Source of the DNA: an uncultured bacterium
GTDB lineage: Bacteria > Patescibacteriota > Patescibacteriia > CAIQCM01
Assembly (NCBI GenBank): GCA_903870305.1
Contig: CAIQCM010000155.1
Location: forward strand, 1-11,787
Length of the DNA: 11,787 nucleotides
Reading direction: 5' to 3'
Under the pieces are notes generated by a model. The model worked only from the letters and a program-made list of their open reading frames with translations, was not told where the DNA came from and searched no databases. The translations under genes were made by a program, and so were the position numbers. Position 1 is the stretch's first letter, and the number at the start of each line of letters is the position of its first letter. Positions 1 through 11,410 of the stretch are shown in pieces.

Positions 1-318
1 ACATGGGAGACGGATCCGGACAAAGACGGCATAAATTACATTTTGACGTCCTATGTTCCGCCGGCGCGAGAGGGCGATTGGCGGACGTTGAATGCGACCT
101 TCGACCTCGCAAAACTCTCGGTCGTGAGCCGTGCCGCCAATTTCACGATCTCCGTGCCGGGGATCGACCTTCAGCAAAAAGAGCTGCGTATTGCCGCGAT
201 CGACGTGACGCTAAAGCGCGCGCCGCTCGCGAGCCGCGACCTTTGGCCGGCCATTTTGAAGATGTGGAACTCGATTGTCGGAAAGCAGAAAGAGTTTGTG
301 AATAGTTTAACAAATTAA
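1..318 (+). CDS. C-terminal part of an unknown beta-rich protein (5' end outside window)
   Basis: The frame is open from the first base of the window to the TAA at 316-318, so this is the last ~105 codons of a longer gene rather than a small gene starting at the TTG at 43. The visible part has alternating hydrophobic residues suggesting beta strands (about 67-183), including the stretch ANFTISVPGIDLQQKELRIA, which resembles the strand pattern of a jelly-roll or carbohydrate-binding-like domain. It then ends in a short amphipathic helix (LWPAILKMWNSIVGKQKEFV). A DPDKDG stretch at the left edge could be a calcium-type loop or chance. No catalytic motif is visible and I do not recognise the family. 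The stop codon is the first triplet of the heptamer repeat region that follows. Confidence 0.72.
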   Translation, partial: TWETDPDKDGINYILTSYVPPAREGDWRTLNATFDLAKLSVVSRAANFTISVPGIDLQQKELRIAAIDVTLKRAPLASRDLWPAILKMWNSIVGKQKEFVNSLTN

Positions 319-404
319 TATCTAATATCTAACAACTAATATCTAATCCGCCGTATATGGCGGTCGTCCGGATTAGAGATTAGATATTAGACATTAGATA
401 TTCG
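316..404. repeat. Inverted repeat with heptamer-array arms (TAATATC type)
   Basis: This fills the gap between the first two genes. The left arm is five back-to-back 7-mers at 316-350: TAATATC, TAATATC, TAACAAC, TAATATC, TAATCCG. The right arm at 369-404 holds the reverse complement with the same period (GATTAGA, GATTAGA, TATTAGA, CATTAGA, TATTCG). The arms pair imperfectly around a GC core, CCGCC (348-352) and GGCGG (359-363), with a GTATAT loop. No T-run follows the core, so it is not a classical intrinsic terminator. The left arm includes the stop codon of the upstream gene. Confidence 0.85.
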
Positions 405-411
405 TCCGAGT

Positions 412-786
412 ATGCTCGAACAAGAAAACAAAACAAAAAAGATCATAGCGACCGCGGTCTCGCCTTTCGCGACCGCGTCGTTCGTTCTCTTGATCATTTT
501 GTCGCTCGCAGAATATTTCCGCCGCGGCTTTGTTTCTTTGTTCCTCGATTTTCGGATCCTGGCGGCCATTGTCTTGGCCCTTTGGATCATTGCCGTTATA
601 ACCGAAGCGCCGCCGCGCCGCCGCGTTCTCGCGGCTATCATGCCGGCGGTCGTTTTGCTTGCCGTTTCCCCGGTTCTGTATAAAATGATATTGCCCTTCG
701 GCCGCCTCGGCCTCGTCACTTTTATCGCAGGGATCGCTGTGATCATCGTGATCGCCATCGTGCTTTGGGGCAAAAATGAAACATAA
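412..786 (+). CDS. Small four-TM integral membrane protein of unknown function
   Basis: The ATG at 412 starts a 124-residue protein. A short charged N-terminus (MLEQENKTKK) is followed by four hydrophobic segments at about residues 14-33, 48-64, 72-90 and 98-119. The loop between segments 2 and 3 is basic (PPRRR, 67-71). By the positive-inside rule this loop is cytoplasmic, so both ends would also be cytoplasmic. No conserved polar residues inside the membrane segments suggest transport or catalysis, and I do not recognise the family. There is no Shine-Dalgarno site, and the start lies 7 nt after the right arm of the 316-404 inverted repeat. The last codons and the TAA (784-786) are written in the first heptamers of the next inverted repeat (778-862), so its C-terminus NET is set by that repeat. 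Confidence 0.72.
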   Translation: MLEQENKTKKIIATAVSPFATASFVLLIILSLAEYFRRGFVSLFLDFRILAAIVLALWIIAVITEAPPRRRVLAAIMPAVVLLAVSPVLYKMILPFGRLGLVTFIAGIAVIIVIAIVLWGKNET

Positions 787-862
787 AGCATGAAACATGA
801 AACATTCTAGTCCCTCGCCGCGACTCGGGACGAAATGCTTCATGCTGCGTGCTTCATGCTTC
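778..862. repeat. Inverted repeat with heptamer-array arms (GAARCAT type)
   Basis: The left arm is four consecutive 7-mers at 778-805: GAAACAT, AAAGCAT, GAAACAT, GAAACAT. The right arm is four consecutive 7-mers at 835-862: ATGCTTC, ATGCTGC, GTGCTTC, ATGCTTC, the reverse complement of GAAGCAT. Mismatches between the arms are mostly A/G or T/C transitions. The core between the arms has a GTCCC/GGGAC stem (810-814 and 827-831). No T-run follows, so this is not an ordinary terminator. The left arm overlaps the end of the preceding membrane-protein gene, and the right arm ends 11 nt before the HIT gene start. Confidence 0.87.
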
Positions 863-873
863 ATTCAACAAAT

Positions 874-1284
874 ATGGATTGTCTCTTCTGTAAAATCATC
901 GCCAAACAGATCCCGGTCGATCTTATTTATGAAAATGAAAAAGTCGTTGCCTTTTTGGATATCAATCCGGTGAACCCCGGGCATCTTTTGGTCGTTCCCA
1001 AAGTTCATAGTGAGAACATCGCCGTCGCCGCGGACGATGACCTTATCGCTTTGACGCTGGCCGTTAAAAAATTGGCCCCGGCCGTTTGCGCCGTCACCGC
1101 TTGCGACGGTTGGAATCTTGAGGTGAACAATGGCAATGCCGCGGGACAAGCGATTGATCACACTCATTGGCACATCGTGCCGCGCCGCAAAGACGACGGC
1201 TTCAAACATTGGCCCGGCCATCCGTACGCGGCAGGGGAGGCCGCCAAGATCATTGCTTTAATTCGCGAAAATTTAATGTCATAA
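874..1284 (+). CDS. HIT-family nucleotide hydrolase (Hint/HinT branch)
   Basis: This is a 136-residue histidine-triad protein. The triad HTHWH is at residues 96-100 (H96, H98, H100), followed by IVPR. The family core LDINPVNPGHLLVVPKVH (about 28-45) lies upstream, and C3/C6 of the N-terminal CLFCKI form the CxxC pair that often binds zinc together with downstream histidines. Hint-branch proteins hydrolyse purine nucleoside phosphoramidates and related adenylylated compounds through a covalent nucleotidyl-histidine intermediate; the exact substrate here is unknown. The frame is open from an ATG at 835, but those 13 extra codons are the right arm of the 778-862 repeat. The ATG at 874 gives the normal family start (MDCLFCKII) and is preferred. 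No Shine-Dalgarno site or clear -10 is visible. Confidence 0.95.
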   Translation: MDCLFCKIIAKQIPVDLIYENEKVVAFLDINPVNPGHLLVVPKVHSENIAVAADDDLIALTLAVKKLAPAVCAVTACDGWNLEVNNGNAAGQAIDHTHWHIVPRRKDDGFKHWPGHPYAAGEAAKIIALIRENLMS

Positions 1285-1298
1285 GTCGCCGCCGGCGC

Positions 1299-1339
1299 GC
1301 TATATAGCTATTGACATTTTTCATGTTTTCGGTTAAGTT
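1299..1339 (+). promoter_or_regulatory. Promoter of the 1395 gene, with adjoining palindrome
   Basis: A perfect -35 TTGACA lies at 1311-1316. It is followed at 17-nt spacing by TAAGTT (1334-1339), which keeps only the three most conserved -10 positions. A perfect 10-bp palindrome GCTATATAGC (1299-1308) sits directly upstream of the -35 and could be an operator or chance. A start near 1346 would give a leader of about 50 nt carrying the Shine-Dalgarno site. The rest of the 107-nt gap after the HIT gene holds nothing else I can support. Confidence 0.5.
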
Positions 1340-1381
1340 TTTGTTGCGTTTGTAAATTAACAACGGCCCTTGCGGCCCAAC

Positions 1382-1387
1382 AAGGAG
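1382..1387 (+). promoter_or_regulatory. Consensus Shine-Dalgarno site AAGGAG
   Basis: AAGGAG ends 7 nt before the ATG at 1395 and only 4 nt before the ATG at 1392. The spacing favours 1395. It is the only consensus ribosome binding site before any gene in this window, where the other starts have weak or no such site. Confidence 0.75.
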
Positions 1388-1394
1388 ATGGATG

Positions 1395-2129
1395 ATGAAG
1401 GAATTTCTCAACGATATCGATGATACCGGCGATCGTAAAGATGAACCCCCGTTGAAAAACGAACCCTCACCACCGGATGTAAAGAGGATCAGCGGGATCA
1501 TTAAGGATGAAGACAAGCTGATCGAAAACAAGGTCAACGAAACGGCGGATGGCCGGCTCGTGATTGGTATCGGTAAGGGGTTTGCGCCCGCATGCGTGTT
1601 GATTGCGTTCCTCGCAACGATCTTTGCGGTGTTCTATGGTCTCATCATTTTGACCTGGATTTCCGCTTCCGTGATGGCGGTGTCGATTGTTCTTGTCGTT
1701 GTTGCATGCTTACTCGACAGAACCGAAGAATTGTGTGATGAAACGAGACGCACGTTGAAGGCCAAAAACAGTGCCGATCCGCGGCTCCAGTTTGCCAGGA
1801 CGATCATCGCCGCGCATTCCGCATGGATAACGCTGAAGGGTCATTACCAGAGCGTTTATGCGGCCGTTTCCGGCGATCTTGGGGCCGAGGGCGACAAGAT
1901 CGCCGACGCTTGTTTTGTACTCCTCGGCGACGGAAGCAAGAGTATTTCCCGCGCCACCGCGATCTTCCTGCTCAAAGAGGATAGCCGCTTGTTTGGTCGT
2001 AATAGCGACGCTTACGATGAGGTCGGCTTCGGTACTCATGAGGCGGAGCTAACCGCGTTCATCGATGCGACAAGAACATCCGATTTCGGCAGACAACTCA
2101 TCAAGGCGGCCGTCAAAGCCCAAGTTTGA
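1395..2129 (+). CDS. Orphan two-TM protein with cytoplasmic helical domain
   Basis: Product of 244 residues if started at 1395; the adjacent ATG at 1392 would add one Met. Regions (numbered from 1392): an acidic, proline-containing hydrophilic N-terminus (1-55), two close hydrophobic segments (about 64-84 and 87-107) joined by a very short turn, then a mostly helical soluble domain (110-245). The hairpin topology places both soluble parts on the same side, probably the cytoplasm. Two cysteines (106, 115) flank the end of TM2 and a third is at 174. I see no nucleotide-binding, peptidase or transporter motif and do not recognise the family. The gene is a complete solo transcription unit with its own promoter, Shine-Dalgarno site and terminator, which makes it different from its neighbours and a possible recent arrival or a separately regulated gene. 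Confidence 0.8.
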   Translation: MKEFLNDIDDTGDRKDEPPLKNEPSPPDVKRISGIIKDEDKLIENKVNETADGRLVIGIGKGFAPACVLIAFLATIFAVFYGLIILTWISASVMAVSIVLVVVACLLDRTEELCDETRRTLKAKNSADPRLQFARTIIAAHSAWITLKGHYQSVYAAVSGDLGAEGDKIADACFVLLGDGSKSISRATAIFLLKEDSRLFGRNSDAYDEVGFGTHEAELTAFIDATRTSDFGRQLIKAAVKAQV

Positions 2130-2146
2130 CCGCCGATTCCCGACCC

Positions 2147-2190
2147 AACTGCGCCCCCGCTTATGCCGCCGGCGCAGTTTTTCTTTTTTA
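2147..2190 (+). terminator. Intrinsic terminator after the two-TM orphan gene
   Basis: A perfect 9-bp stem AACTGCGCC (2147-2155) / GGCGCAGTT (2171-2179) encloses a 15-nt loop. It runs directly into a T-rich tract (2178-2189, TTTTTCTTTTTT with one C). It starts 18 nt after the stop codon at 2127-2129. It is the clearest factor-independent terminator on the plus strand in the left half of the window. Confidence 0.88.
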
Positions 2191-2218
2191 CGACGCGACC
2201 GCGAAGATGCCTCTTTTA

Positions 2219-2247
2219 TTGACCAACGGCGCATTTTGTGCTATGGT
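2219..2247 (+). promoter_or_regulatory. Extended -10 promoter for rmlD-like gene, nearly leaderless
   Basis: -35 TTGACC (2219-2224), 17-nt spacer, -10 TATGGT (2242-2247) preceded by the extended TG (2239-2240). Transcription starting about 7 nt downstream would begin near 2254, two bases before the ATG at 2256, leaving no room for a ribosome binding site. Confidence 0.66.
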
Positions 2248-2255
2248 TATCACTT

Positions 2256-3086
2256 ATGAAAATACTTATTTTGGGCGCGAAGGGGATGCTGGGGAGCGCG
2301 CTTGCCGAGGAATTCAAGAACGGAAACGAAGTGCTCGCGTGGACGCGCGAGGAGCTTGATATATCTGACCCCGAAGCCATGGCCGGCGCGATCACTTCTG
2401 ACATTGACATGATCGTGAACGCGGCCGCCCTAACCGACATTGATGCGATCGAAGACAAACTCGACGAAGCGATGAAAGTGAACGCGCGCCCGTCGGCGGT
2501 GCTCGCGGACATTTGCAACATTTTGGGCATGACCTATGTCCACTTTTCCTCGGAGCATGTTTTTCCGGGGCGCGACAATCGCGGCTATGACGAGCGCGGC
2601 AAAACGGAACCGCTCTCGGTCTATGGCAGCGCCAAAGCGCAATCGGAAAAGTTCGCGCTGGAAAATGACCGCACTTACCTCATCCGCACTTCGCGGCTTT
2701 TCGGCGACCCGGGAACCTCGGCGAACGCCAAGGAGAGTTTTGTTCAAGATATCAAGAATGCCGCTTCGTCTCAGGGTTCGATCAACTCGGTTCACGATGA
2801 AGTGGCTTCGCCTACTTATGTGAAAGATCTTGCAAGATCGGTGCGTGAACTGGTTGAGGCGAAAAAACCTTATGGCGTTTATCATATCGTAAATTCGGGC
2901 TACGCCACCTGGTATCAGTTTGCGTCAAAAGTCGTTGAGCTTTCCAAATTGAACGCGACGGTCGCGCCGGTTGCGCGCCGCGAAATGCCCGTTGCCGCGG
3001 TTCGTCCGCGCTACGGCATGCTCGTGAATACAAAACTTCCTCAGCTTAGAAGCTGGGAAGAAGCGCTTACTGAATACCTTCAGTAA
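2256..3086 (+). CDS. rmlD: RmlD-like dTDP-4-dehydrorhamnose reductase / NAD-dependent sugar reductase
   Basis: This is a 276-residue Rossmann protein of the extended SDR superfamily, close to the usual RmlD length (~280-300). The N-terminal glycine motif GAKGMLG (7-13) follows a beta strand directly at the start, as expected for RmlD. The catalytic pair Y123 and K127 is in VYGSAK. The region SSEHVF (98-103) corresponds to the family's STDYVF, with Asp-Tyr replaced by Glu-His. The C-terminal RPRYGMLVNTKL matches the RmlD RPxxSxLxxxK signature. RmlD reduces dTDP-4-keto-L-rhamnose to dTDP-L-rhamnose. No rmlA, B or C lies next to it here, so another nucleotide-sugar substrate or a MAT2B-like role is possible. 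The upstream GTG at 2238 lies in the promoter and is not used. There is no Shine-Dalgarno site; translation is probably leaderless. Confidence 0.87.
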   Translation: MKILILGAKGMLGSALAEEFKNGNEVLAWTREELDISDPEAMAGAITSDIDMIVNAAALTDIDAIEDKLDEAMKVNARPSAVLADICNILGMTYVHFSSEHVFPGRDNRGYDERGKTEPLSVYGSAKAQSEKFALENDRTYLIRTSRLFGDPGTSANAKESFVQDIKNAASSQGSINSVHDEVASPTYVKDLARSVRELVEAKKPYGVYHIVNSGYATWYQFASKVVELSKLNATVAPVARREMPVAAVRPRYGMLVNTKLPQLRSWEEALTEYLQ

Positions 3087-3087
3087 G

Positions 3088-3178
3088 AACCAACAACCAA
3101 GAACCAATTTCCAAGATTTAAAAAACAAGGATGATCGCCTTGTTTTTTAAATTTGACCTTGGAATTTAGTTGTTAGCA
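3088..3178. repeat. Inverted repeat with heptamer-array arms (AACCAAN type) in convergent gap
   Basis: The left arm is four 7-mers at 3088-3115: AACCAAC, AACCAAG, AACCAAT, TTCCAAG. The right arm at 3158-3178 reads, in reverse complement, TGCTAAC, AACTAAA, TTCCAAG. The arms pair imperfectly around the terminator hairpin at 3117-3151. The 20-mer CCTTGGAATTTAGTTGTTAG at 3157-3176 recurs exactly at 11367-11386. The 22-bp run over 3095-3116 recurs exactly at 5248-5269. Confidence 0.85.
3117..3151. terminator. Bidirectional terminator between converging rmlD-like and PEGA genes
   Basis: A perfect 14-bp stem, TTTAAAAAACAAGG (3117-3130) and its complement CCTTGTTTTTTAAA (3138-3151), encloses the 7-nt loop ATGATCG. 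The stem carries a six-T run on either strand immediately after the CAAGG/CCTTG pairs, so it can end transcripts arriving from both sides. It lies 31 nt after the rmlD-like stop and 36 nt from the PEGA-gene stop. The G+C part of the stem is short, so efficiency is uncertain. Confidence 0.8.
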
Positions 3179-3186
3179 TTTTTAAC

Positions 3187-3924
3187 TTACTGCAGTATGC
3201 GCTTCCATAGCGTCTTGCCGGATTGATAATATAAGGTTTTGCCGTCGGAGGCGAGCGACAGTCCGTTTAATCCTTCTCCGGTCACGAGTGTAATATCGTT
3301 TCTGGTGTCCCGTCCGTCACGCTCGATCGCATGGATCGAAGTTTTGGTCTCATAGATCACCCAGCCGGTGTTCACGTAGGGGAGAATGGCGAGGATCTCG
3401 TCGGAAAGGCGCGTGACGGTCTCGCGGTCGCCGTTCTTATTTTCGACCCAGATCTCGAATCCGTCGCTTTTGAACGTTTCGCCGTTGCTCTCATATGAGA
3501 GCGGATTGGCGCGTTTGAGCATCGCGAGTTCCGTTTGATCGAGCGTTTCCGAGGGCGACGTCGCGAGCGCTTCGGGCGCGGCCGTTTTCCAAAGGACGAT
3601 GCCTTCGGCGAAGGTCGTGAGCGCGCTTTCAACCGGTAAAGTCTTGCTCCAGGCGCTGTAGCCCTTCTTTGTCACCTTGATCAGATAATCGCTCGGAAGC
3701 AGGTCGCGCAAGCGGGCCGGCGTATGATCCGATCGCAGCTTGCCATCCAAAAAGATCTCGGCGCCGGACGGCCGCGAACGCAAAAAAATTATTCCGACCT
3801 TTTCGAGCCGGACCTTTTTTTCATTCCAGCGGTAGCCGGCCGTGTAGAGGACGACGACGGGCGCGGTGACGAAAAAAAGAATAATGAAGCCGACAAGTAT
3901 GCTGATCCTTGTTCTATAGGTCAT
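3187..3924 (-). CDS. PEGA-domain protein with one N-terminal TM anchor
   Basis: A 245-residue protein. Residues 7-28 form one hydrophobic segment, followed by YTAGYRWN, a pattern I associate with PEGA proteins of Patescibacteria. A PEGA domain follows at about 44-98: IFLRSRPSGAEIFLDGK (46-62) carries the P-x-G-A-x-I-x-L-D-G-K core. The rest (about 130-245) is strand-rich with repeats ending in DGKTLYYQSGKTLWKR, like the blades of a beta-propeller; at this length it would be a partial propeller or a small beta domain. PEGA domains are found on surface proteins and are thought to bind other envelope components; there is no catalytic motif. It is transcribed alone on the minus strand, converging with the rmlD-like gene and diverging from murA. 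Its ATG (3924) is 11 nt from a TATGAT -10, so it too has little or no leader. Confidence 0.85.
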   Translation of the reverse strand: MTYRTRISILVGFIILFFVTAPVVVLYTAGYRWNEKKVRLEKVGIIFLRSRPSGAEIFLDGKLRSDHTPARLRDLLPSDYLIKVTKKGYSAWSKTLPVESALTTFAEGIVLWKTAAPEALATSPSETLDQTELAMLKRANPLSYESNGETFKSDGFEIWVENKNGDRETVTRLSDEILAILPYVNTGWVIYETKTSIHAIERDGRDTRNDITLVTGEGLNGLSLASDGKTLYYQSGKTLWKRILQ

Positions 3925-3964
3925 TTTGTTCTATGATCATATCTATTACTAACCGTCCGTCACA
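3909..3964. promoter_or_regulatory. Divergent PEGA-gene/murA promoter region with overlapping -10 boxes
   Basis: The perfect palindrome TATGATCATA (3932-3941) gives TATGAT, one base from the -10 consensus, on both strands: plus at 3932-3937 and minus at 3941-3936. The plus-strand -35 would be TTGTTC (3909-3914, spacer 17), giving murA a leader of about 20 nt. The minus-strand -35 is poor. RNA polymerase bound in one direction would block the other, so the PEGA gene and murA may compete for transcription. Confidence 0.55.
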
Positions 3965-5214
3965 TGTCCAAATTCATCATCAGAGGCGGAAATGCGCTCA
4001 AGGGCGAGGTCAAGATCTGCGGCTCGAAGAATGAGGTTTTGCCGGCGCTTTGCGCTTGTCTTTTGACCGCCGAACCGGTCATTATAAGGAATGTACCACG
4101 AATTTCCGATGTCGATAAGCTCTTAAAGATCATCATTTCGCTGGGCGCCGAAGCAGAGTGGACGGGCGATCATGAGGTCAGGGTTTGCGCGCGGGCCGTC
4201 AATTTGGGCCACCTCGACGCCGCATTGGTTGCTGGTTTTCGCGGCTCGGTGCTCCTTATGGGACCGTTACTCGCGCGCTTCGGCTCGGTCACCCTGCCGG
4301 AACCCGGCGGCGACATCATCGGCAAGCGGCCGCTTGACGACCACTTTAACGCTTTCGAGGAAATGGGCGCGAAGGTCGTTGTCGCGCACGACAGCGTTTC
4401 AATCAGCGGGTCGCTTCACGGCTCCGAAGATATTCTGCCGATCTTTTCGGTCACCGCGACGGAGAACGTGCTGATGGCCGCCGCGCTCACCGCCGGCCGC
4501 ACCGTCATCAAATTGGCCGCCGCCGAACCGCACGTGCAAAAGCTTTGCCAAATGCTCGCGGCCATGGGCGCGACGGTCGAAGGGGCGGGCACGCATACGA
4601 TCATCGTTACCGGCGCAAAAACGCTCCATGGCTGCGATCATACGATCTCGGGGGACATGCTTGAGGCGGGGACCTTTATTGTGGCCGTGGCGGCCACCGG
4701 CGGCGAAGCGACGCTTACGGGCGTCGAGATGAACGATCTCGACATGGTTTTGAACGTTGTTCATTCGATCGGCATCAAGACCTCAATAGCCCATGGAAAA
4801 TTGCGCGTCACCGCGCCCGCAGCCATCAAACCCTTTCATTTGCAAACGCTTCCTTACCCCGGGTTTGCCACCGACCTGCAAGCGCCGTTCTCGGTTTTGG
4901 CCACTCAAGCTGCCGGCATGTCAATGATCCACGACCCCATGTACGAGGGGCGGCTGGCGCATATCCCTTGGCTTGTGAAAATGGGCGCGAACGCCGTTGT
5001 CTGCGATCCGCATCGCGTCGTCATTTCCGGCCCCACGGCGCTTCATGGCTATGAGATCAAGGCGCTGGACATTAGGAGCGGCGCCACGATGGTGATCGCC
5101 GGACTCGCCGCGCGCGGCGAAACGATCGTGCACGATGCCGAAATTCTTGATCGGGGTTATGAACGCCTTGCCGAACGCCTCGCCTCGCTCGGAGCGGACA
5201 TAAGACGCGAATAA
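3964..5214 (+). CDS. murA: UDP-N-acetylglucosamine 1-carboxyvinyltransferase with Asp at the catalytic Cys position
   Basis: This is a 416-residue cytoplasmic enzyme of the usual length, made of two inside-out alpha/beta domains. It catalyses the first committed step of peptidoglycan synthesis, moving enolpyruvate from PEP to UDP-GlcNAc. Visible landmarks in E. coli-like positions are K22-N23 in GSKNEVLP, R122 in GKRP, D231 in SGDMLEAGTF, D304 in PGFATDLQAPF and R397 in DRGYERL. The active-site loop PGGDIIGKRP (115-123) has Asp117 where most bacteria have Cys (E. coli C115). The Cys-to-Asp form occurs naturally in mycobacteria, chlamydiae and Borrelia, remains active and does not react with fosfomycin. 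The region YEGRLAHIPWL (327-337) also departs from the usual ENRF form. It starts at 3964 with no Shine-Dalgarno site. The S41 gene begins 19 nt after its stop, with its own promoter in the gap. Confidence 0.95.
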   Translation: MSKFIIRGGNALKGEVKICGSKNEVLPALCACLLTAEPVIIRNVPRISDVDKLLKIIISLGAEAEWTGDHEVRVCARAVNLGHLDAALVAGFRGSVLLMGPLLARFGSVTLPEPGGDIIGKRPLDDHFNAFEEMGAKVVVAHDSVSISGSLHGSEDILPIFSVTATENVLMAAALTAGRTVIKLAAAEPHVQKLCQMLAAMGATVEGAGTHTIIVTGAKTLHGCDHTISGDMLEAGTFIVAVAATGGEATLTGVEMNDLDMVLNVVHSIGIKTSIAHGKLRVTAPAAIKPFHLQTLPYPGFATDLQAPFSVLATQAAGMSMIHDPMYEGRLAHIPWLVKMGANAVVCDPHRVVISGPTALHGYEIKALDIRSGATMVIAGLAARGETIVHDAEILDRGYERLAERLASLGADIRRE

Positions 5215-5224
5215 ATGTTATAAT
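5195..5224 (+). promoter_or_regulatory. Extended -10 promoter for S41 operon, leaderless
   Basis: A perfect -10 TATAAT (5219-5224) is preceded by the extended TG at 5216-5217. A four-of-six -35 CGGACA (5195-5200) lies 18 nt upstream, inside the murA coding end. Transcription starting 6-8 nt downstream falls at 5230-5232, immediately before the ATG at 5234, so the mRNA is predicted to be leaderless or nearly so. Confidence 0.75.
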
Positions 5225-5233
5225 GCCATATAT

Positions 5234-6571
5234 ATGGAAGAACCAAGAACCAAGAACCAATTTCCAAGAAACGGATTTCCAAGAAACGGATTTTTTAAGA
5301 AAGTCCGGCTTTCTTTGGGCGTTTACATTGCGATCATTGCCGTTCTTGCGAGTTTCGCGGGCGGCGTGGCGATCGGGCAGCGACAGGAAAAAACAGCCAC
5401 GGCTCCGGGTACCGGCGAGGTTACCAACAAAAACGCGCCGGAGCCGAATTATATTTCAAAGGACGTTGACATGAGCCAGTTCTGGAAGGTCTGGGATACG
5501 ATTCACAACGAATATCTCCGCACCCCGGTCGCCGACCCCAAACTTTTCTACGGTTCGATCAAAGGCATGGTCGCCTCCCTTGGCGATCCCTATTCGGTTT
5601 ATTTCGATCCTGACGAAGCGTCGCAATTCTCAAGCCAGCTTGAAGGCACCTTCGACGGGATCGGCGCGGAAATGGGTTTCAAGGATTTGCAAATGATCGT
5701 TGTCGCGCCATTGCCAAACACTCCCGCCTCAAAAGCCGGGCTTAAGGCCGGCGACGCCGTCCTTAAGATCAACGGCGAGGACACGACCAATATGCCGCTC
5801 GACATTGCCGTCTCCAAGATCCGCGGCTTAAAGGGGACCACAGTGACGCTTAACATTTATCGCAACGGTATCACCGACCCGTTCGACATTACGATCACCC
5901 GCGACAAGATCGTCGTTGACTCGGTGCAATCGAAAATGATCGACGCCTCGGGCAAAGAAATAACGGGTGCGGGGGGCATTGCGCTTATCACGATCAGCGA
6001 ATTCAACCAAGACACGGTTCAAGGGTTTGACGCAGCGCTTTCTGCCATGCAAATGCGCGGCGCCAAAGGTATCATCATCGACATGCGCGGCAACCCCGGC
6101 GGATACTTGGACGCCGCGGTCGAAGTTCCGCGCGACTGGGTGGGCGACGAGCCGGTCGTTATCCAGCGCAAATCCGACGGCTCCCAAGAAGTGATGAAAC
6201 CGACCATGAAGATCACGCCCGTCTCGCTCCCGACGGTGATCTTGGTCGACAAATGGACGGCGAGCGCGGCGGAGATCGTTTCCGGCGCCATGCAGGATTA
6301 TGGCAAGGCGACCTTGGTGGGAGAGACGACTTTCGGCAAGGGCGTGGTCCAAGAATATATCGACAGCTTCCCCGACGGTTCCGCATTAAAGCTCACGATG
6401 GCCGAGTGGCTCACCCCAAAAGGCCGCTCGATCGACAAAAAAGGGATCACCCCGGACATTGCCGTGGCGCTAACGGACGCCGACATCAAAGCCGGCAAAG
6501 ATCCTCAGCTCGACAAGGCGATCGAGATCGTAACGAAAAAACCCGATGCAGCAGCGACAGCTAAAAAATAA
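5234..6571 (+). CDS. S41-family C-terminal processing peptidase (CtpA/Prc type)
   Basis: This 445-residue membrane-anchored serine protease has one TM/signal anchor at about 28-48 with the body outside the membrane. An N-terminal helical segment (FWKVWDTIHNEYL, 83-95) typical of CtpA is followed by a PDZ domain (about 136-215, with LKAGDAVLKINGED at 170-183) and then the S41 catalytic fold. The Ser-Lys-Gln triad is intact: S344 in TASAAEI, K369 and Q373 in GKGVVQEY, with the Ser-Lys spacing of 25 and Lys-Gln spacing of 4 seen in E. coli Prc. RGNPGG (285-290) is the strand motif before the active site. Such proteases trim the C-termini of envelope proteins. The first ~22 residues, with a tandem FPRNG, are encoded by the heptamer repeat at 5241-5290 and are unlikely to be a conserved domain. 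Its end overlaps the Nudix gene by 26 nt. Confidence 0.95.
   Translation: MEEPRTKNQFPRNGFPRNGFFKKVRLSLGVYIAIIAVLASFAGGVAIGQRQEKTATAPGTGEVTNKNAPEPNYISKDVDMSQFWKVWDTIHNEYLRTPVADPKLFYGSIKGMVASLGDPYSVYFDPDEASQFSSQLEGTFDGIGAEMGFKDLQMIVVAPLPNTPASKAGLKAGDAVLKINGEDTTNMPLDIAVSKIRGLKGTTVTLNIYRNGITDPFDITITRDKIVVDSVQSKMIDASGKEITGAGGIALITISEFNQDTVQGFDAALSAMQMRGAKGIIIDMRGNPGGYLDAAVEVPRDWVGDEPVVIQRKSDGSQEVMKPTMKITPVSLPTVILVDKWTASAAEIVSGAMQDYGKATLVGETTFGKGVVQEYIDSFPDGSALKLTMAEWLTPKGRSIDKKGITPDIAVALTDADIKAGKDPQLDKAIEIVTKKPDAAATAKK
5241..5290 (+). repeat. Heptamer array plus 15-nt tandem repeat inside the S41 coding start
   Basis: Four 7-mers run through 5241-5268: AACCAAG, AACCAAG, AACCAAT, TTCCAAG, the same unit type as the left arm at 3088-3115, with 22 identical bases (5248-5269 versus 3095-3116). 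Then a 15-nt unit occurs twice (5261-5275 and 5276-5290), coding for FPRNG FPRNG. The whole stretch lies in frame between the ATG and the TM anchor. No inverted partner arm is present here. Confidence 0.85.
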
Positions 6572-7025
6572 TGTTCGCGTTGAGCACTCGGCCGGCGGCG
6601 TGGTATTTCGACGCTTGGATCGACGCATCTTGATCGGCTTGATCAAGGATTCTTACCATAAATGGACCTTTCCCAAAGGGCATTTGGAAAAGGGCGAAAC
6701 GCCGGCGCAAGCGGCGCTCCGTGAAACGCATGAAGAAATGGGACTGAAGCGCCTGCGCTTGGTCGCTCCCCTGGGGGACGTCTCGATAAAATTCAAAGAT
6801 CGTTTCGTCCATGTCGGGCAAACCGTGCAAAAACGCATTGATTTTTTTCTTATGGAAACGCCGAGCCATGAACAGGGCAAGCCCGAGCGCGGCGAGCGGA
6901 TAAGCGATATCCGCTGGGTGCCTTACCGCCAGGCCGTCAAGATCGTGAGCTATAAGAACGTTCAACCGATCGTGGCGCGAGCGGTGGCGCACTTGGATCA
7001 AGCGATTAAAAATAAGAAAGTGTGA
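6546..7025 (+). CDS. Nudix hydrolase, Ap4A-hydrolase-like
   Basis: A 159-residue Nudix protein. The Nudix box occupies residues 45-67: G45, E51, R59-E60, E63-E64 and G66 are in place, with the helix glutamates that bind Mg2+; the aliphatic position after RE is Thr61. The preceding KWTFPKGHLEKGE is typical of bacterial and animal-type diadenosine tetraphosphate hydrolases, which split Ap4A and related dinucleotides; RNA 5'-cap or (d)NTP substrates are also possible. A C-terminal DIRWVPYRQAVKIVSYKN gives the usual strand-helix end. The start at 6546 overlaps the S41 end by 26 nt. The ATG at 6571 is out of frame. It ends in a 4-nt overlap (GTGA) with the next gene, indicating translational coupling. 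Confidence 0.93.
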   Translation: MQQRQLKNNVRVEHSAGGVVFRRLDRRILIGLIKDSYHKWTFPKGHLEKGETPAQAALRETHEEMGLKRLRLVAPLGDVSIKFKDRFVHVGQTVQKRIDFFLMETPSHEQGKPERGERISDIRWVPYRQAVKIVSYKNVQPIVARAVAHLDQAIKNKKV

Positions 7026-9544
7026 ACTATAAGGATTACGCGATTCAAGATACTCAGAAGATCTTCGTCGATCTTAAAAGCGGCCCCGACGGGCTTTCCG
7101 CGGCCGCCGCGCTCTCGGCGCTTTCCGTGGGCGGCGCCAACCGCATCCCGCGGCCAAAGCTTTCCGGATTGAGGATCCTGCTTCGGCAACTTACCTCGCC
7201 GATGACCTACGTGCTGGCCGCGGCTTTTTTTATTTCGCTCATTGTTTCCGATCTTAGTTCGGCGCTTACGATCCTTGTTTTTTTGATCCTTAACGCCGTT
7301 CTGTCTTTCACCCAGGAATACCGGTCCGAGCATGTCGTCCAAAAATTGCAAAAGTTCATAACCCCGACGGCGCTGGTCAAACGCAACGGGGTTTGGAAAG
7401 CGGTGCCGCGCGATGAGGTGGTAGGGGGCGATATGGTCGCGGTCAAAGCCGGCGACGCTTTTCCGGCTGATGTTCGTATCATCAAGGCGGAGAATTTATT
7501 GGTCGACGAATCGATCCTAACCGGCGAATCGGCGCCCGCGGAAAAAGACGAGCGGACGATGACCGCCTCGCCGGAGACGCCGTCGGATGCCGTAAACATC
7601 GGTTTTGCCGGAACGATCGTCGTCTCCGGCGAGGCCGAAGCGCTGGTCGTCGCGACCGGCGGACAAACGGTCTTTGGCGGGATCGCCGCCGAGAGCAGCG
7701 AAACAAAACGGCCATCGATCTTCGAGCAGAACATTGCTTCGTTCTCAAAGTTCCTTGTTTGGCTCACGGTGATCGTGCTGGGAGCCGTGTACATCGCAAA
7801 CCTCTTGATCAAAGGCGCCGCTGAAAGCCCCATCGACCTGCTGCTCTTCTCGCTGGCCGTGGCCGTCTCGGTCATTCCCGAGGCCTTGCCTGCGGTCATC
7901 ACTATTACTTTTTCAAAAGGCGCGCTTATTTTGGCGCGGAAGAAAGTGGTCGTAAAACGACTCTCCGCGATTGAGGACCTGGGACACATTGAAGTGCTTT
8001 GCACCGACAAGACCGGTACGATCACCGAGAACAAACTCGCGATCGGCCGCGTCGTTTGCGGCAATGCCAATGCTTGCCTTCTTTCGGCGCTGCACTCGTC
8101 GGAGCTCCCGCAAGGAAAAAAACAAACCGTTTCATCGTTTGATGCGGCTATTTGGCATTTTGCCTCGAACGAGCTTCATGGCGAGGCCAAAAAAGCGGTT
8201 CGGCTTGATCAGTTGCCGTTCGATCCGACGCGGCGCAGGAATGCGACCATTGTTGAGCGCAATGGGAAGACGATCTTGGCGCTCAAGGGCGCGCCCGAAG
8301 ACATTCTCGATCTCTGCCATGTGACGGGCGCCGCGCGCGAGGCGGCCGAATCCGAGTTTAAGGCCATGGGTGAAGAGGGGATGCGCGTTTTGGCCGTTGC
8401 CGAACGCGAGGTCGTGAAAAAGGACGAATATGGCGCCGCCGACGAAGAGGGTGCCGTTTTCATGGGGCTCATCGGTTTTATTGACCCGCTTAAATCCACC
8501 GCCAAGGCCGCTATCGAGCTGGCCGAACGGCTCCATGTGCGCATCAAGATGATCACCGGCGATTCGGCCGAAGTGGCCGGCGCGGTCGGGGTCAAGGTGG
8601 GGATAATTAAGTCCGTAAGCGAAGTTGTAACTGGCGCGGAACTCGCCAAACTCAACGACGGCGCTTTCGCCGCCGCGGTCGAAGCGACAGACGTTTTCGC
8701 GCGCGTGACGCCGGACATCAAATACCGGATTGTGAACGCGCTTGAGAAAAAATTTGCTACCGGCTTTTTGGGCGAAGGCATTAACGATGCGCCGGCGCTT
8801 AAGGCCGCAAACGTCGCGATCGCCGTTGCCGAGGCCTCGGATATTGCCCGCGAAGCGGCGGACGTCGTGCTCTTGGAGCGTTCGCTTGCGGTCGTCGTCG
8901 ACGGCATAAAGGAAGGCCGCACCATCTTTGCAAACGTCACCAAGTACATCCGTTATACGCTGGTCGGAAATCTTGGCAATTTTTTCTCGATCGCCCTTAT
9001 CTCGCTTTTTGTCGATTACCTCCCGCTTTTGCCGGTACAGATCCTGCTCATTAATTTGCTCACCGACATTCCGTTCGTTGCGGTGGCCACCGATAACGTC
9101 GATATTGAAGACATTGCCACGCCGCACCGCTTTTCCATTCGCGGACTCGCCCTCTATGCCAGCATTCTCGGTTTTGTGGCTTCGCTTTTTGATTTTATCT
9201 TTTTCGCTCTCATGCGAAGCGCGCCGGTGGGCGAGATCCGCACGCTGTGGTTTGTCATGAATATGCTGACCGAGGTGGCGACGATCTTTGTCCTGCGCAC
9301 CAACCGGTTTTTCTTGAGTGCGCGTCGTCCGTCATGGCTTCTGACGCTGATCTCGGTCACCATAATGGCCGTCTCGGTCGTTCTGCCGTTCACGAGCTTC
9401 GGCGCGCGTGTTTTCAGTTTCGTCACCCCGTCTGCGGTGGGTCTTGCGATGGTCATCGCCATCATGTTTGTTTATGTCGCCGCGACCGAAGCCGCCAAGC
9501 TCGCTTATCTGCGGTTCTCCAAAAAAGTCATCCCGGTGCGGTGA
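7022..9544 (+). CDS. P-type cation-transporting ATPase (HAD-IC family, Mg/P3-like features)
   Basis: This is an 840-residue ion pump with the full P-type order: N-terminal cytoplasmic region, TM1-2 (about 60-97), actuator domain with LTGES (166-170), TM3-4 (about 243-295) with VIPEALP (284-290), phosphorylation site D329 in CTDKTGT, nucleotide domain with KGAPE (422-426), hinge ITGDS (511-515) and GEGINDAPALK (584-594), then six C-terminal TM segments. The wording around the hinge (TGFLGEGINDAP) and around VVVKRLSAIEDLG resembles MgtA-type pumps, but TM6 (NLLTDIPFVAVATDNVD) differs, so Mg2+, Ca2+ or H+ cannot be told apart here. Glu585 replaces the nearly invariant Asp of GDGxND. The GTG start (7022) overlaps the Nudix stop (GTGA) and is preceded by a weak AAGAAAG. 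Confidence 0.93.
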   Translation: MNYKDYAIQDTQKIFVDLKSGPDGLSAAAALSALSVGGANRIPRPKLSGLRILLRQLTSPMTYVLAAAFFISLIVSDLSSALTILVFLILNAVLSFTQEYRSEHVVQKLQKFITPTALVKRNGVWKAVPRDEVVGGDMVAVKAGDAFPADVRIIKAENLLVDESILTGESAPAEKDERTMTASPETPSDAVNIGFAGTIVVSGEAEALVVATGGQTVFGGIAAESSETKRPSIFEQNIASFSKFLVWLTVIVLGAVYIANLLIKGAAESPIDLLLFSLAVAVSVIPEALPAVITITFSKGALILARKKVVVKRLSAIEDLGHIEVLCTDKTGTITENKLAIGRVVCGNANACLLSALHSSELPQGKKQTVSSFDAAIWHFASNELHGEAKKAVRLDQLPFDPTRRRNATIVERNGKTILALKGAPEDILDLCHVTGAAREAAESEFKAMGEEGMRVLAVAEREVVKKDEYGAADEEGAVFMGLIGFIDPLKSTAKAAIELAERLHVRIKMITGDSAEVAGAVGVKVGIIKSVSEVVTGAELAKLNDGAFAAAVEATDVFARVTPDIKYRIVNALEKKFATGFLGEGINDAPALKAANVAIAVAEASDIAREAADVVLLERSLAVVVDGIKEGRTIFANVTKYIRYTLVGNLGNFFSIALISLFVDYLPLLPVQILLINLLTDIPFVAVATDNVDIEDIATPHRFSIRGLALYASILGFVASLFDFIFFALMRSAPVGEIRTLWFVMNMLTEVATIFVLRTNRFFLSARRPSWLLTLISVTIMAVSVVLPFTSFGARVFSFVTPSAVGLAMVIAIMFVYVAATEAAKLAYLRFSKKVIPVR

Positions 9545-9555
9545 TCTTATCCACT

Positions 9556-9583
9556 TTGGCTCACGCCGCCTTAAGAGTAAAAT
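9556..9583 (+). promoter_or_regulatory. Promoter for pyrG, nearly leaderless
   Basis: -10 TAAAAT (9578-9583), one base from consensus, ends 9 nt before the ATG at 9593. A weak -35 TTGGCT (9556-9561) lies 16 nt upstream. A start near 9590 leaves only about 3 nt of leader. No terminator is visible in the 48-nt gap, so read-through from the ATPase gene is also likely. Confidence 0.6.
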
Positions 9584-9592
9584 GATCCCAAT

Positions 9593-11215
9593 ATGACCAA
9601 ATACATCTTTATCGTCGGCGGCGTCATGAGCGGGGTGGGGAAGGGTACGGCCTCGGCCTCGATCGCGAAGATCCTTCAGTCAAAGGGCTTTCGCGTTTCG
9701 GCGATGAAAATTGACCCCTACATCAACGTCGACGCCGGCACGATGAACCCGGTCGAACACGGCGAGGTGTTTGTGACCGAGGACGGCGACGAGACCGATC
9801 AGGATATTGGCACCTACGAACGCTTCTTGGACATCGATGTCAACTCGACCAATTACATGACCACCGGCCGCGTTTATCAAACGGTCATCGAAAAGGAGCG
9901 CAACTTGGAGTACGGCGGCAAGTGTGTTGAGGTTGTTCCGCATATTCCCGAAGAGGTCATCCGCCGCATTAAAAAAGCCGCGAAAATTGCGCGCGCCGAA
10001 ATAATGATGATCGAGGTCGGCGGCACGGTGGGCGAGTATCAGAACGCGCTTTTCTTAGAGGCCGGCCGCATGATGCACCAAAAGAATCCGCATGATGTTT
10101 TGTTTGTGCTGGTTTCATATTTGCCGGTACCCTCGAAGATAGGGGAGATGAAGACCAAGCCGACGCAGAACGCCAACCAGCTTCTTAACTCCGTCGGGAT
10201 CCAGCCCGACATTATTTTGGGCCGCGCCGAATGTCCGCTCGATGAACCGCGAAAAAGAAAGATCGCCATGTTCTGCAATGTTGATGTTAAAGATGTTATT
10301 TCCGCGCCCGACGCCGATTCGGTCTATGAGGTGCCGGTTAATTTGGAAAAAGAAGGAATATCGAAACGTATTTTAAAAAAGCTTGGTCTTCGCGCCAGGA
10401 AAAAAGATCTTAAGGAGTGGCGCGCCTTTTTGCGCAAAGTGCATGAATCGGAAAAGCCGGTCAGGATCGCGGTCATCGGTAAATATTTTTCAACCGGCGA
10501 TTTTACGCTTTCTGACGTTTATATTTCCGTGATCGAATCGTTAAAGCACGCCGCTTGGCACTTCAAGCGCAAGCCGGAACTGCATTGGCTTAACTCCGAA
10601 CTCTATGAGAAGGAACCGGAACGGCTCAAGGACCTGTCACTATACGACGGCGTCGTCATCCCCGGCGGTTTTGGCACGCGCGGGGTTGAGGGCAAAATTG
10701 CCGTGATCAAATACGTGCGCGAGAAAAAGATCCCTTACCTCGGTCTTTGCTACGGCATGCAGATCGCCGCCATTGAATTCGCCCGTCATGTTGCCGGATT
10801 GCGCTCCGCGAATACCGCGGAGATCGACGCTTCTTCGCCGCACCTCATTGTCCATATCATGCCCGATCAAGAGGGCCTGGTTCGCCAAAAGAAATACGGC
10901 GGCACCATGCGCCTAGGCGCGTATCCGTGTGTGCTCAAACCGGGGACGATCTCGAGGGGTGCCTACGGCAAAAAAAATATTTCCGAGCGCCACCGCCACC
11001 GCTACGAGTTGAACAACGCCTATCGCGACCAACTCACGAAAGCCGGTCTCATCATCGCCGGCACCTCGCCTGACAACAAGCTTGTTGAAATAATCGAGCT
11101 CAAAAACCACCCCTTTTTCGTCGCCACCCAATTCCACCCCGAATTCAAAACGCGGCCCATGGCCCCGCACCCCCTCTTCCGCGAGTTCATCCGCGCCGCC
11201 ATTCGCGGAAAATAA
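9593..11215 (+). CDS. pyrG: CTP synthase
   Basis: A 540-residue enzyme making CTP from UTP, ATP and glutamine, with the family's normal two-domain length. The synthetase domain (1-~270) carries the P-loop GGVMSGVGKG (9-18), KIDPYINVDAGT (39-50), EHGEVFVTEDG (55-65), TTGRVYQTVIEKER (90-103) and KTKPTQ (187-192). The class-I glutaminase domain (about 288-540) has the oxyanion strand PGGFGTRG (357-364), nucleophile C386 in GLCYGMQ, ERHRHRYE (465-472) and the H515/E517 pair in QFHPEF, so the catalytic triad is complete. GGTVGEYQNALFLEA (143-157) differs from the E. coli GGTVGDIESLPFLEA, and the nucleophile elbow has Tyr after Cys instead of Leu. I take this as a lineage feature rather than loss of function. 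The start is supported by the conserved MTKYIFIVGG and the -10 box 9 nt upstream. Confidence 0.98.
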   Translation: MTKYIFIVGGVMSGVGKGTASASIAKILQSKGFRVSAMKIDPYINVDAGTMNPVEHGEVFVTEDGDETDQDIGTYERFLDIDVNSTNYMTTGRVYQTVIEKERNLEYGGKCVEVVPHIPEEVIRRIKKAAKIARAEIMMIEVGGTVGEYQNALFLEAGRMMHQKNPHDVLFVLVSYLPVPSKIGEMKTKPTQNANQLLNSVGIQPDIILGRAECPLDEPRKRKIAMFCNVDVKDVISAPDADSVYEVPVNLEKEGISKRILKKLGLRARKKDLKEWRAFLRKVHESEKPVRIAVIGKYFSTGDFTLSDVYISVIESLKHAAWHFKRKPELHWLNSELYEKEPERLKDLSLYDGVVIPGGFGTRGVEGKIAVIKYVREKKIPYLGLCYGMQIAAIEFARHVAGLRSANTAEIDASSPHLIVHIMPDQEGLVRQKKYGGTMRLGAYPCVLKPGTISRGAYGKKNISERHRHRYELNNAYRDQLTKAGLIIAGTSPDNKLVEIIELKNHPFFVATQFHPEFKTRPMAPHPLFREFIRAAIRGK

Positions 11216-11408
11216 CCAACCACTAACAACTTCCACCCGAGGCGGATCATCCTTGGGCTGAAAATTCCAAGGAAAGTTTCAAAAACTAATTTTCAAATTT
11301 TAAAAACGGGGCCGCGGGTCTCGTTTTTTGATTTTAATTTTTTTGATCATTAATCATTGGATATTTCCTTGGAATTTAGTTGTTAGTGGTTAGTTGTTAT
11401 CGTTAGTT
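11214..11408. repeat. Long branched inverted repeat with heptamer-array arms (TAACNAC type)
   Basis: Two perfect 14-bp arm pairs nest around a terminator core: 11218-11231 with 11378-11391, and 11262-11275 with 11364-11377. On the right the two arms abut. On the left they are split by a 30-nt segment (11232-11261) that forms its own 7-bp hairpin, CCCGAGG (11236-11242) / CCTTGGG (11251-11257) with one G-T pair, so the whole can fold as a three-way branch. Read on the minus strand, the right side is a 7-nt-period array (TAACAAC, TAACCAC, TAACAAC, TAAATTC, CAAGGAA). It contains the 20-mer also present at 3157-3176. This explains the 239-nt convergent gap together with the two terminators. Confidence 0.85.
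11302..11329 (+). terminator. Intrinsic terminator for pyrG
   Basis: At RNA level a 12-bp stem forms between 11302-11313 (AAAAACGGGGCC) and 11317-11328 (GGTCTCGTTTTT), with two G-U pairs and a 3-nt GCG loop. The seven pairs nearest the loop are mostly G-C and run straight into six Ts (11324-11329). It lies about 87 nt after the pyrG stop, at the centre of the inverted repeat at 11214-11408. Confidence 0.78.
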
Positions 11409-11410
11409 AT

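Follow-up and report, generated by a model that had tools for sequence, protein, structure and literature searches.

The stretch of DNA analysed here (the window) is contig C155, 11,787 nt from an uncultured member of Patescibacteria whose assembly (G000) comprises 948 kb in 160 contigs. Four of its intergenic gaps contain inverted repeats with arms composed of arrays of 7-nt units (heptads), as the initial annotation of the window had reported, and neither property was reproduced by shuffling (Table 1). The best 21-nt identity at lag 7 and the best 20-nt inverted match were 19/21 and 17/20 for the gap at 310-410, 17/21 and 16/20 at 776-866, 16/21 and 16/20 at 3084-3182, and 16/21 and 18/20 at 11212-11410; in every gap, these values were reached by 0/300 and 0/60 shuffles, respectively. 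Lags 5, 6 and 8-11 gave a maximum of 13/21 across the four gaps. However, the description of the period as strict was an overstatement, as 1-3 of the 7 positions differ between units and the heptad pattern covers only part of the right arms at 3158-3177 and 11371-11400.

Elsewhere in the window, stretches 2130-2255 and 3925-3963 displayed no array signal (the latter being too short for the inverted test), and stretch 1286-1390 gave a weak one (lag 7, 12/21, p = 0.03; inverted match, p = 0.55). Stretch 5215-5320 holds a fifth array, with a single arm (lag 7, 18/21, 0/300 shuffles; inverted match, p = 0.37). The words said to cross loci, TAACAAC at 330-336 and TTCCAAG at 3109 and 5262, were confirmed, the word at 5262 proving to be part of this one-armed array.

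Table 1. Parts of the heptad elements identified in the window
Feature	Position	Strand	Remarks
F1 left arm	316..350	+	Four TAAnnnC heptads and TAATCCG; shares bases with the upstream gene's stop codon
F1 loop	351..368	.	Part folds as its own G+C-rich hairpin
F1 right arm	369..403	-	Outer end 8 nt ahead of the ATG at 412
F4 left arm	776..806	+	ATGAAAC/ATGAAGC heptads
F4 right arm	834..865	-	
F2 left arm	3083..3115	+	AACCAAG heptads, terminating in AATTTCCAAG
Central hairpin, then T-run	3120..3150	.	Between convergent genes; by eye and by folding; absent from the terminator-scan list
F2-related right arm	3158..3177	-	Heptad only in part
One-armed F2 module	5238..5267	+	Within the longest S41 peptidase frame (5234-6571), at its 5' end
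Left arm	11212..11234	+	Contains CCACTAACAACTTCC
Long interior	11263..11377	.	Nested inverted repeat and terminator-like hairpin (11302-11328)
Right arm	11371..11400	-	TTAGTTG/TTAGTGG heptads

The genome-wide excess at lag 7 that the initial annotation had proposed to look for was evident in a scan of 60 of the 160 contigs plus the window (436 of 948 kb), many of these contigs having been picked because TAATATC words were listed there, which enriches the sample for matches. We recorded 85 intergenic tracts at lag 7, against a mean of 0.0 over 20 shuffles, with none at lags 4-6 and 8-13 and 62 at lag 14. Tracts were present in 67 of the 261 gaps of all scanned contigs and in 9 of the 65 gaps of 31 contigs picked by number from outside the TAATATC listing, a sample that is biased low, and 150 kb of E. 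coli K-12 (102 gaps) yielded none. The pattern TAATATCTAATATCTAA, with up to 2 mismatches, had 140 matches in the genome, and the reversed pattern had 0. Lag-7 tracts were also found, with a weaker signal, in a congener, G001 (22 tracts; other lags at most 4, save 20 at lag 14), and in two genomes of a single genus from another family of the class, G050 (27 tracts) and G132 (22 tracts; other lags at most 4, save 15 at lag 14). The CTAATNN form was present in 47 of 144 sampled genomes of the class, although the reversed control pattern also matched sometimes.

The arrays belong to several unit families, referred to here as F1, F2 and so on. The 39 F1 arms have the same 4-5 heptads between a weak CG at the outer border and a CCG at the inner one, and there is little conservation outside: information falls from about 1.8 bits inside to 0.5 or less outside, and the outer border is independent of the search pattern, which set the last 19 positions. 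The F2 module, AAGAACCAAGAACCAAGAACCAATTTCCAA, measures about 30 nt and is present in 28 copies (information outside, 0.7 or less), 13 of which have an inverted partner. The flanks of F1 arms and F2 modules are mostly unrelated, as are the F1 loops, which range from 4 to 349 nt across 14 pairs, with a CCTCTCC...GGAGAGG loop common to three F1 loci (by eye). One F1 element at a contig end (L004 11890-12119) sits in a near-perfect fold-back that may be an artefact of assembly and whose 25-nt outer arms are identical.

Additional families include ATGAACN, ATGAAAC, TAGAACN, TTAGGGN and more, and 70 distinct units were counted in the four genomes and the loci from the class. An inverted partner (at least 72% identity, within 200 nt) was identified for 65 of 108 G000 tracts, for which the controls gave 4 further direct copies, 4 reversed copies and 15 complements; at 65% identity, the counts were 74 inverted, 9 direct, 6 reversed and 32 complement. 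In G001, 12 of 24 tracts had such a partner (complement control, 4), and the pairing was weak in G050 (6/35) and G132 (4/29). The number of units per tract peaked at four in all four genomes (44/112 tracts in G000), in a count whose score floor conceals shorter arrays. Perfect CTAATCC direct arrays were observed in G111 (L080), with longer ones on other contigs of that genome, unlike the short four-unit arms.

G000 and G001 have a median protein identity of 81% over 134 reciprocal best pairs and share 74 gaps. The element at 316-404 is absent from G001, in which the flanking genes nearly touch (L107 3304-3310), and in the gap corresponding to 778-862 G001 has a one-armed ATTAGAT array in its place; G001 likewise has no element at the site of L004 5235. 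In whole-gap alignments (gaps of 25-350 nt, considered aligned at z > 3), alignment between the congeners succeeded for 13 of 14 plain gaps, for 7 of 12 gaps in which a single genome has heptads, and for 2 of 8 in which both do (plain versus both, p = 0.002). In each of the 10 gaps where both congeners have heptads, the home paralogue, taken as the best of many candidates, was closer than the orthologue, and orthologous copies did not, on average, resemble each other more than randomly paired copies from the two genomes did (0.112, 0.128). The families are mostly not inherited at orthologous gaps in this genus and appear to be quickly replaced between related species. At score 10, the co-occurrence of heptads over the 74 shared gaps had an odds ratio of 7.6 (p = 0.006); at score 11, however, p rose to 0.056, and it was 0.21 (or 0.27) when both gaps were at least 40 nt long (6 both, 12 and 2 in one, 12 neither), and we therefore make no claim of site conservation for these two genomes.

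Copies of F2 are occasionally placed within genes. Four of the 28 lie in called genes, compared with 0 of 50 for F1, F3 and F4 together (p = 0.014), and the F2 sequence, when read directly, has no stop in any frame. The host genes, named from their sequence, encode uL22 (in its tail), RsmA, CysS and SSB, the RsmA and CysS identities being supported by solved homologues. The peptide TKNQEPISK is common to the RsmA and CysS copies, and the F2 stretch of RsmA is 6 residues longer than in three aligned solved homologues. The module at 5238-5267 of the window was excluded from this count, the gene caller having placed the S41 start at 5314; directly after it, a 15-nt tandem duplication (TTTCCAAGAAACGGA) was observed in the S41 frame at 5260-5289. 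The palindromic elements of Rickettsia are likewise small and dispersed, with several families, some of them in frame within unrelated genes (PMC10969869); they measure about 150 bp, and the available part of that source makes no mention of a heptad period.

The best explanation, to which we would give about an even chance of being correct, is that the window elements represent copies from a number of families of short, dispersed, non-autonomous repeats that have arms of about four 7-base units and resemble repetitive extragenic palindromic (REP) sequences or miniature inverted-repeat transposable elements (MITEs) in their behaviour. Their bounded modules are dispersed, and one genus displays turnover. 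A non-autonomous repeat family had been one of the two initial suggestions; the dispersal with defined borders agrees with it, but several families are involved rather than one. With regard to a MITE-like structure, the elements are dispersed and often inverted, but many F1-like arms are unpaired (see below). Borders that differ by locus, as in short tandemly repeated repetitive (STRR) sequences and long simple sequence repeats (LSSRs), were not found in F1 and F2, the copies of each of these two families having common borders. REP sequences and bacterial interspersed mosaic elements (BIMEs) resemble the present elements in being bounded, species-specific intergenic modules that measure about 35 nt and occur singly or inverted; unlike the elements described here, they have no heptad arms and are tied to genes for REP-associated tyrosine transposases (RAYTs). 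Mechanistically, 7-base slippage may have founded each unit, and copies would then spread by transposition-like or ectopic copying by a putative enzyme, landing widely and persisting chiefly between genes, as stop codons are present in most units; perfect palindromes would presumably be removed by selection. There is no need of a host function to explain the data. SbcD, a component of a hairpin-cutting nuclease, scored above the curated cut-off in 0 of 144 genomes of the class (12 weak matches) and in 8 of 14 controls, and its absence may be permissive for mirrored repeats. Its loss cannot be a requirement, because mirrored arrays also occur in cyanobacteria and a Synechococcus control has an SbcD match.

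Several observations weigh against this explanation. No copying enzyme was found in the genome, the one Y1 transposase of which sits among unlike GCCGAGGCGAAGCCTCGGC hairpins, and dispersal does not account for the 7-base period common to unrelated families. There was no partner within 420 nt for 23 of 51 F1-like arms, and a by-eye look at three F1 flanks revealed no target-site duplication. The F2 stretch of CysS is no clear addition, its length falling between those of the two homologues. A similar family was kept in three G000/G001 gaps (L048, L051 2409 and L056 1257; by eye). Furthermore, all four G050/G132 gaps with heptads in both genomes were homologous (z 3.8-9.4; plain gaps, 10/15), and the orthologues of this pair were closer than random (0.394, 0.144). 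Given the turnover between G000 and G001 and the conservation between G050 and G132, both modes therefore exist.

Array and mirror might instead be built in place, by 7-base replication slippage and template switching at hairpins, an origin suggested elsewhere for LSSRs made of 7-nt units and one that we consider rather unlikely here. The preference for period 7 and the high diversity of the units would be consistent with it, and heptanucleotides are the top long-repeat class in most genomes, with polymerase-contact length proposed as the cause (MacGregor 2015, PMC4679880). However, the elements have defined borders, and one unit family occurs at many loci with mostly unrelated loops. Local copying of the mirrors would be expected to make the arms within an element the most similar. 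Across 13 of the 14 F1 pairs (L006 10746 was dropped, its left arm being out of register), the similarity of same-element arms was 0.853, versus 0.875 for shuffled pairings (p = 0.012), and the values were 0.844 and 0.874 (p = 0.0002) without one contig-end palindrome, a possible assembly fold-back dropped post hoc, after its inspection. F3 and F4, as well as a family from G001 (n = 4, p = 0.25), likewise had less similar arms. The F5 group showed the opposite tendency, and all 38 G000 elements together gave p = 0.15, both of which count against our preferred explanation. The less-alike F1 arms thus argue against local template switching and against a selected RNA stem, and for F1 the initial suggestion of template switching and slippage at each hairpin found no support.

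Selection for functional RNA hairpins (terminators, mRNA stabilisers or processing sites) with a drifting sequence also seems unlikely. It is suggested by the terminator-like hairpin in 11214-11408 and by the hairpin and T-run in 3088-3178, the latter identified by eye and by folding. The terminator scan found one site within 11214-11408 and none in the centres of the other three gaps, with 26 sites in the whole window versus 19.3 expected (sd 5.5), and the number of Rfam matches at gathering score in the window was 0. In one G050/G132 gap, the unit has drifted but the length (exactly 73 nt) and the heptad register are unchanged, and another has nearly retained its length (62 and 66 nt; both by eye); the co-occurrence in this pair, for gaps of at least 40 nt, gave p = 0.04 (2 both, 3 and 0 in one, 18 neither). 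Against selection for such hairpins, G000 tracts occur in all gene orientations (++ 31/107, -- 24/91, convergent 6/32 and divergent 6/31), and the co-occurrence between G000 and G001 in gaps of this length was not significant. Moreover, arm mismatches capable of wobble between co-directional genes of G000 placed G.U pairs on the antisense strand in 81 cases versus 39 on the sense strand, opposite to the expectation for a conserved mRNA stem and for the RNA-stability elements first envisaged. Per element, 21 were antisense-biased and 9 sense-biased, with 10 ties (p = 0.043); the counts were 19 and 9 in G001 (4 elements to 1) and 7 and 7 in G050/G132. As the copies are related, the arm and wobble counts are not fully independent, and this relatedness, the small numbers and the home-made gene calls also count against the explanation by mobile repeats. 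Taken together, the arm and wobble data are evidence against selection for a sense-RNA stem in this genus and favour a weakening of perfect palindromes.

Mirrored heptad arms had initially been regarded as undescribed, which is wrong: GGGAATC arrays form 70 (Xcc) and 75 (Xac) inverted pairs in Xanthomonas (PMC4692102, Rehm et al. 2015), and degenerate heptanucleotide repeats pair into a hairpin in P6b of the Nostoc tRNA-Leu intron (PMC3488679). With inverted heptad arrays described in Xanthomonas, paired heptads in the Nostoc intron and direct arrays in Beggiatoaceae (PMC4679880), the arrays are therefore not a new kind of phenomenon. The Xanthomonas GGGAATC and Nostoc GGGGA(C/T)T heptamers are, like those described here, mostly intergenic, degenerate at fixed positions and mostly of four units; they often form inverted pairs, and their length and sequence differ among related species. 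They have one G-rich unit type, with a discussion of G-quadruplexes, whereas many AT-richer families occur here in one genome (PMC4692102). Our arrays have in common with those of Xanthomonas the 7-nt period, about four units and a nearby inverted partner. Quadruplex-type G-tracts are lacking from the main units, AATATCT, AACCAAG and AAACATG, which have no GGG on either strand; a few TTAGGGN arrays have it. Mirrored TTAGGGN heptads resembling telomere repeats were observed at L006 3165-3259. In the Nostoc intron, paired degenerate heptads form one hairpin as here, but at a single intron locus rather than as dispersed gap elements (PMC3488679). The TAACTGA repeats of Beggiatoaceae are also intergenic heptads, with 2-6 units, stops in all frames and positions near starts; unlike here, the part of the report available describes a single unit and one inverted set of 170 (PMC4679880).

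Cyanobacteria (Microseira and others) have mirrored CTAATNN arrays with the same core unit as here. A scan for mirrored CTAATNN triplets, which tests one unit and addresses presence rather than frequency, found at least 120 stretches in named genomes. Among the 80 matches listed, 72 were cyanobacterial, from a few species, two came from a Rickettsiales bacterium, one from a Phycisphaeraceae bacterium, two from uncultured bacteria and three from Patescibacteria (Sungiibacteriota, Liptonbacteria and Moraniibacteriota). In Microseira, 56 of 88 tracts had an inverted partner in 26 loci, all retrieved for such a match. By eye, some mirrored CTAATNN arrays of cyanobacteria (L175, L183, L184 and L186) were observed to be nested in a longer outer inverted repeat, e.g. 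AAGTTGCTAGTTAT...ATAACTAGCAACTT. No reports of such arrays in Patescibacteria were found in the literature searched, which is no proof of their absence in print. What is added here to the mirrored heptad arrays already known seems to be the many unit families per genome, their fast turnover and the imperfect arms.

A more speculative possibility, with a low probability in our view, is that mobile hairpins constitute a widespread class, with members in Patescibacteria, cyanobacteria and Xanthomonas, whose common denominator is form, not sequence: a period of 7, a mirrored layout, arms of about four units each and a stem that stays imperfect. Such hairpins would be copied by a machine reading the 7-base spacing rather than the letters. 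Why seven, why about four and why mirrored are questions that have been raised separately for cyanobacteria, Xanthomonas and Beggiatoaceae. With many families in one small genome and a congener whose corresponding gaps often hold other families or none, comparison can test these questions, the form being what stays constant when the unit changes. If mobile, the elements would be a source of gap turnover in reduced genomes, sometimes adding peptides to core proteins.

It is improbable that the tracts are binding arrays for an RNA- or DNA-binding protein, with one heptad per domain, acting on translation starts. Cold-shock proteins have been suggested as readers of the TAACTGA repeats, most of which lie directly ahead of start codons, and CspB of B. 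subtilis is able to bind repeated heptamers (PMC4679880). Similarly, 9 of the 23 unpaired F1-like arms end 3-19 nt ahead of a start codon, and tracts within 12 nt of a start numbered 6 of 19 in G050/G132 (1.8 expected, p = 0.005) and 22 of 33 in G000/G001 gaps of 40-100 nt (17.9 expected, p = 0.035). However, 8 of 39 tracts were so placed in G000 gaps of at least 100 nt (7.2 expected), and 70 distinct units are too diverse for one reader. Stop-codon placement in these longer G000 gaps was 13/39, versus 7.5 expected (p = 0.02). Placement at start or stop codons thus involves little beyond a gap-length effect in G000 gaps of at least 100 nt, with some excess near starts elsewhere. All-frame stop codons were rejected as the cause of period 7, since 57 of the 70 distinct units have a stop on either strand, versus 55.4 expected by letter shuffle (p = 0.33).

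Mobilisation of the elements, as REP sequences or BIMEs, by a RAYT (Y1) transposase is very improbable: the genome encodes a 227-aa Y1 transposase (L044 4965-5648) whose sequence includes an HUH-like motif, there is an AATTAGG heptad element some 110 nt away from the 3' end of its gene, and the single and inverted-pair layout with a variable spacer is reminiscent of BIMEs, but the hairpins about this gene differ in sequence from the heptad elements (by eye), the CTAATNN-rich genomes G031 and G033 have no Y1 match, G097 is not among the matches, and Y1 was present in 32 of 47 genomes with CTAATNN versus 54 of 97 without (p = 0.20), so that the RAYT link is unsupported. The several GCCGAGGCGAAGCCTCGGC hairpins observed around this RAYT-like transposase gene, at about L044 4940-5760, constitute a separate REP-like family.

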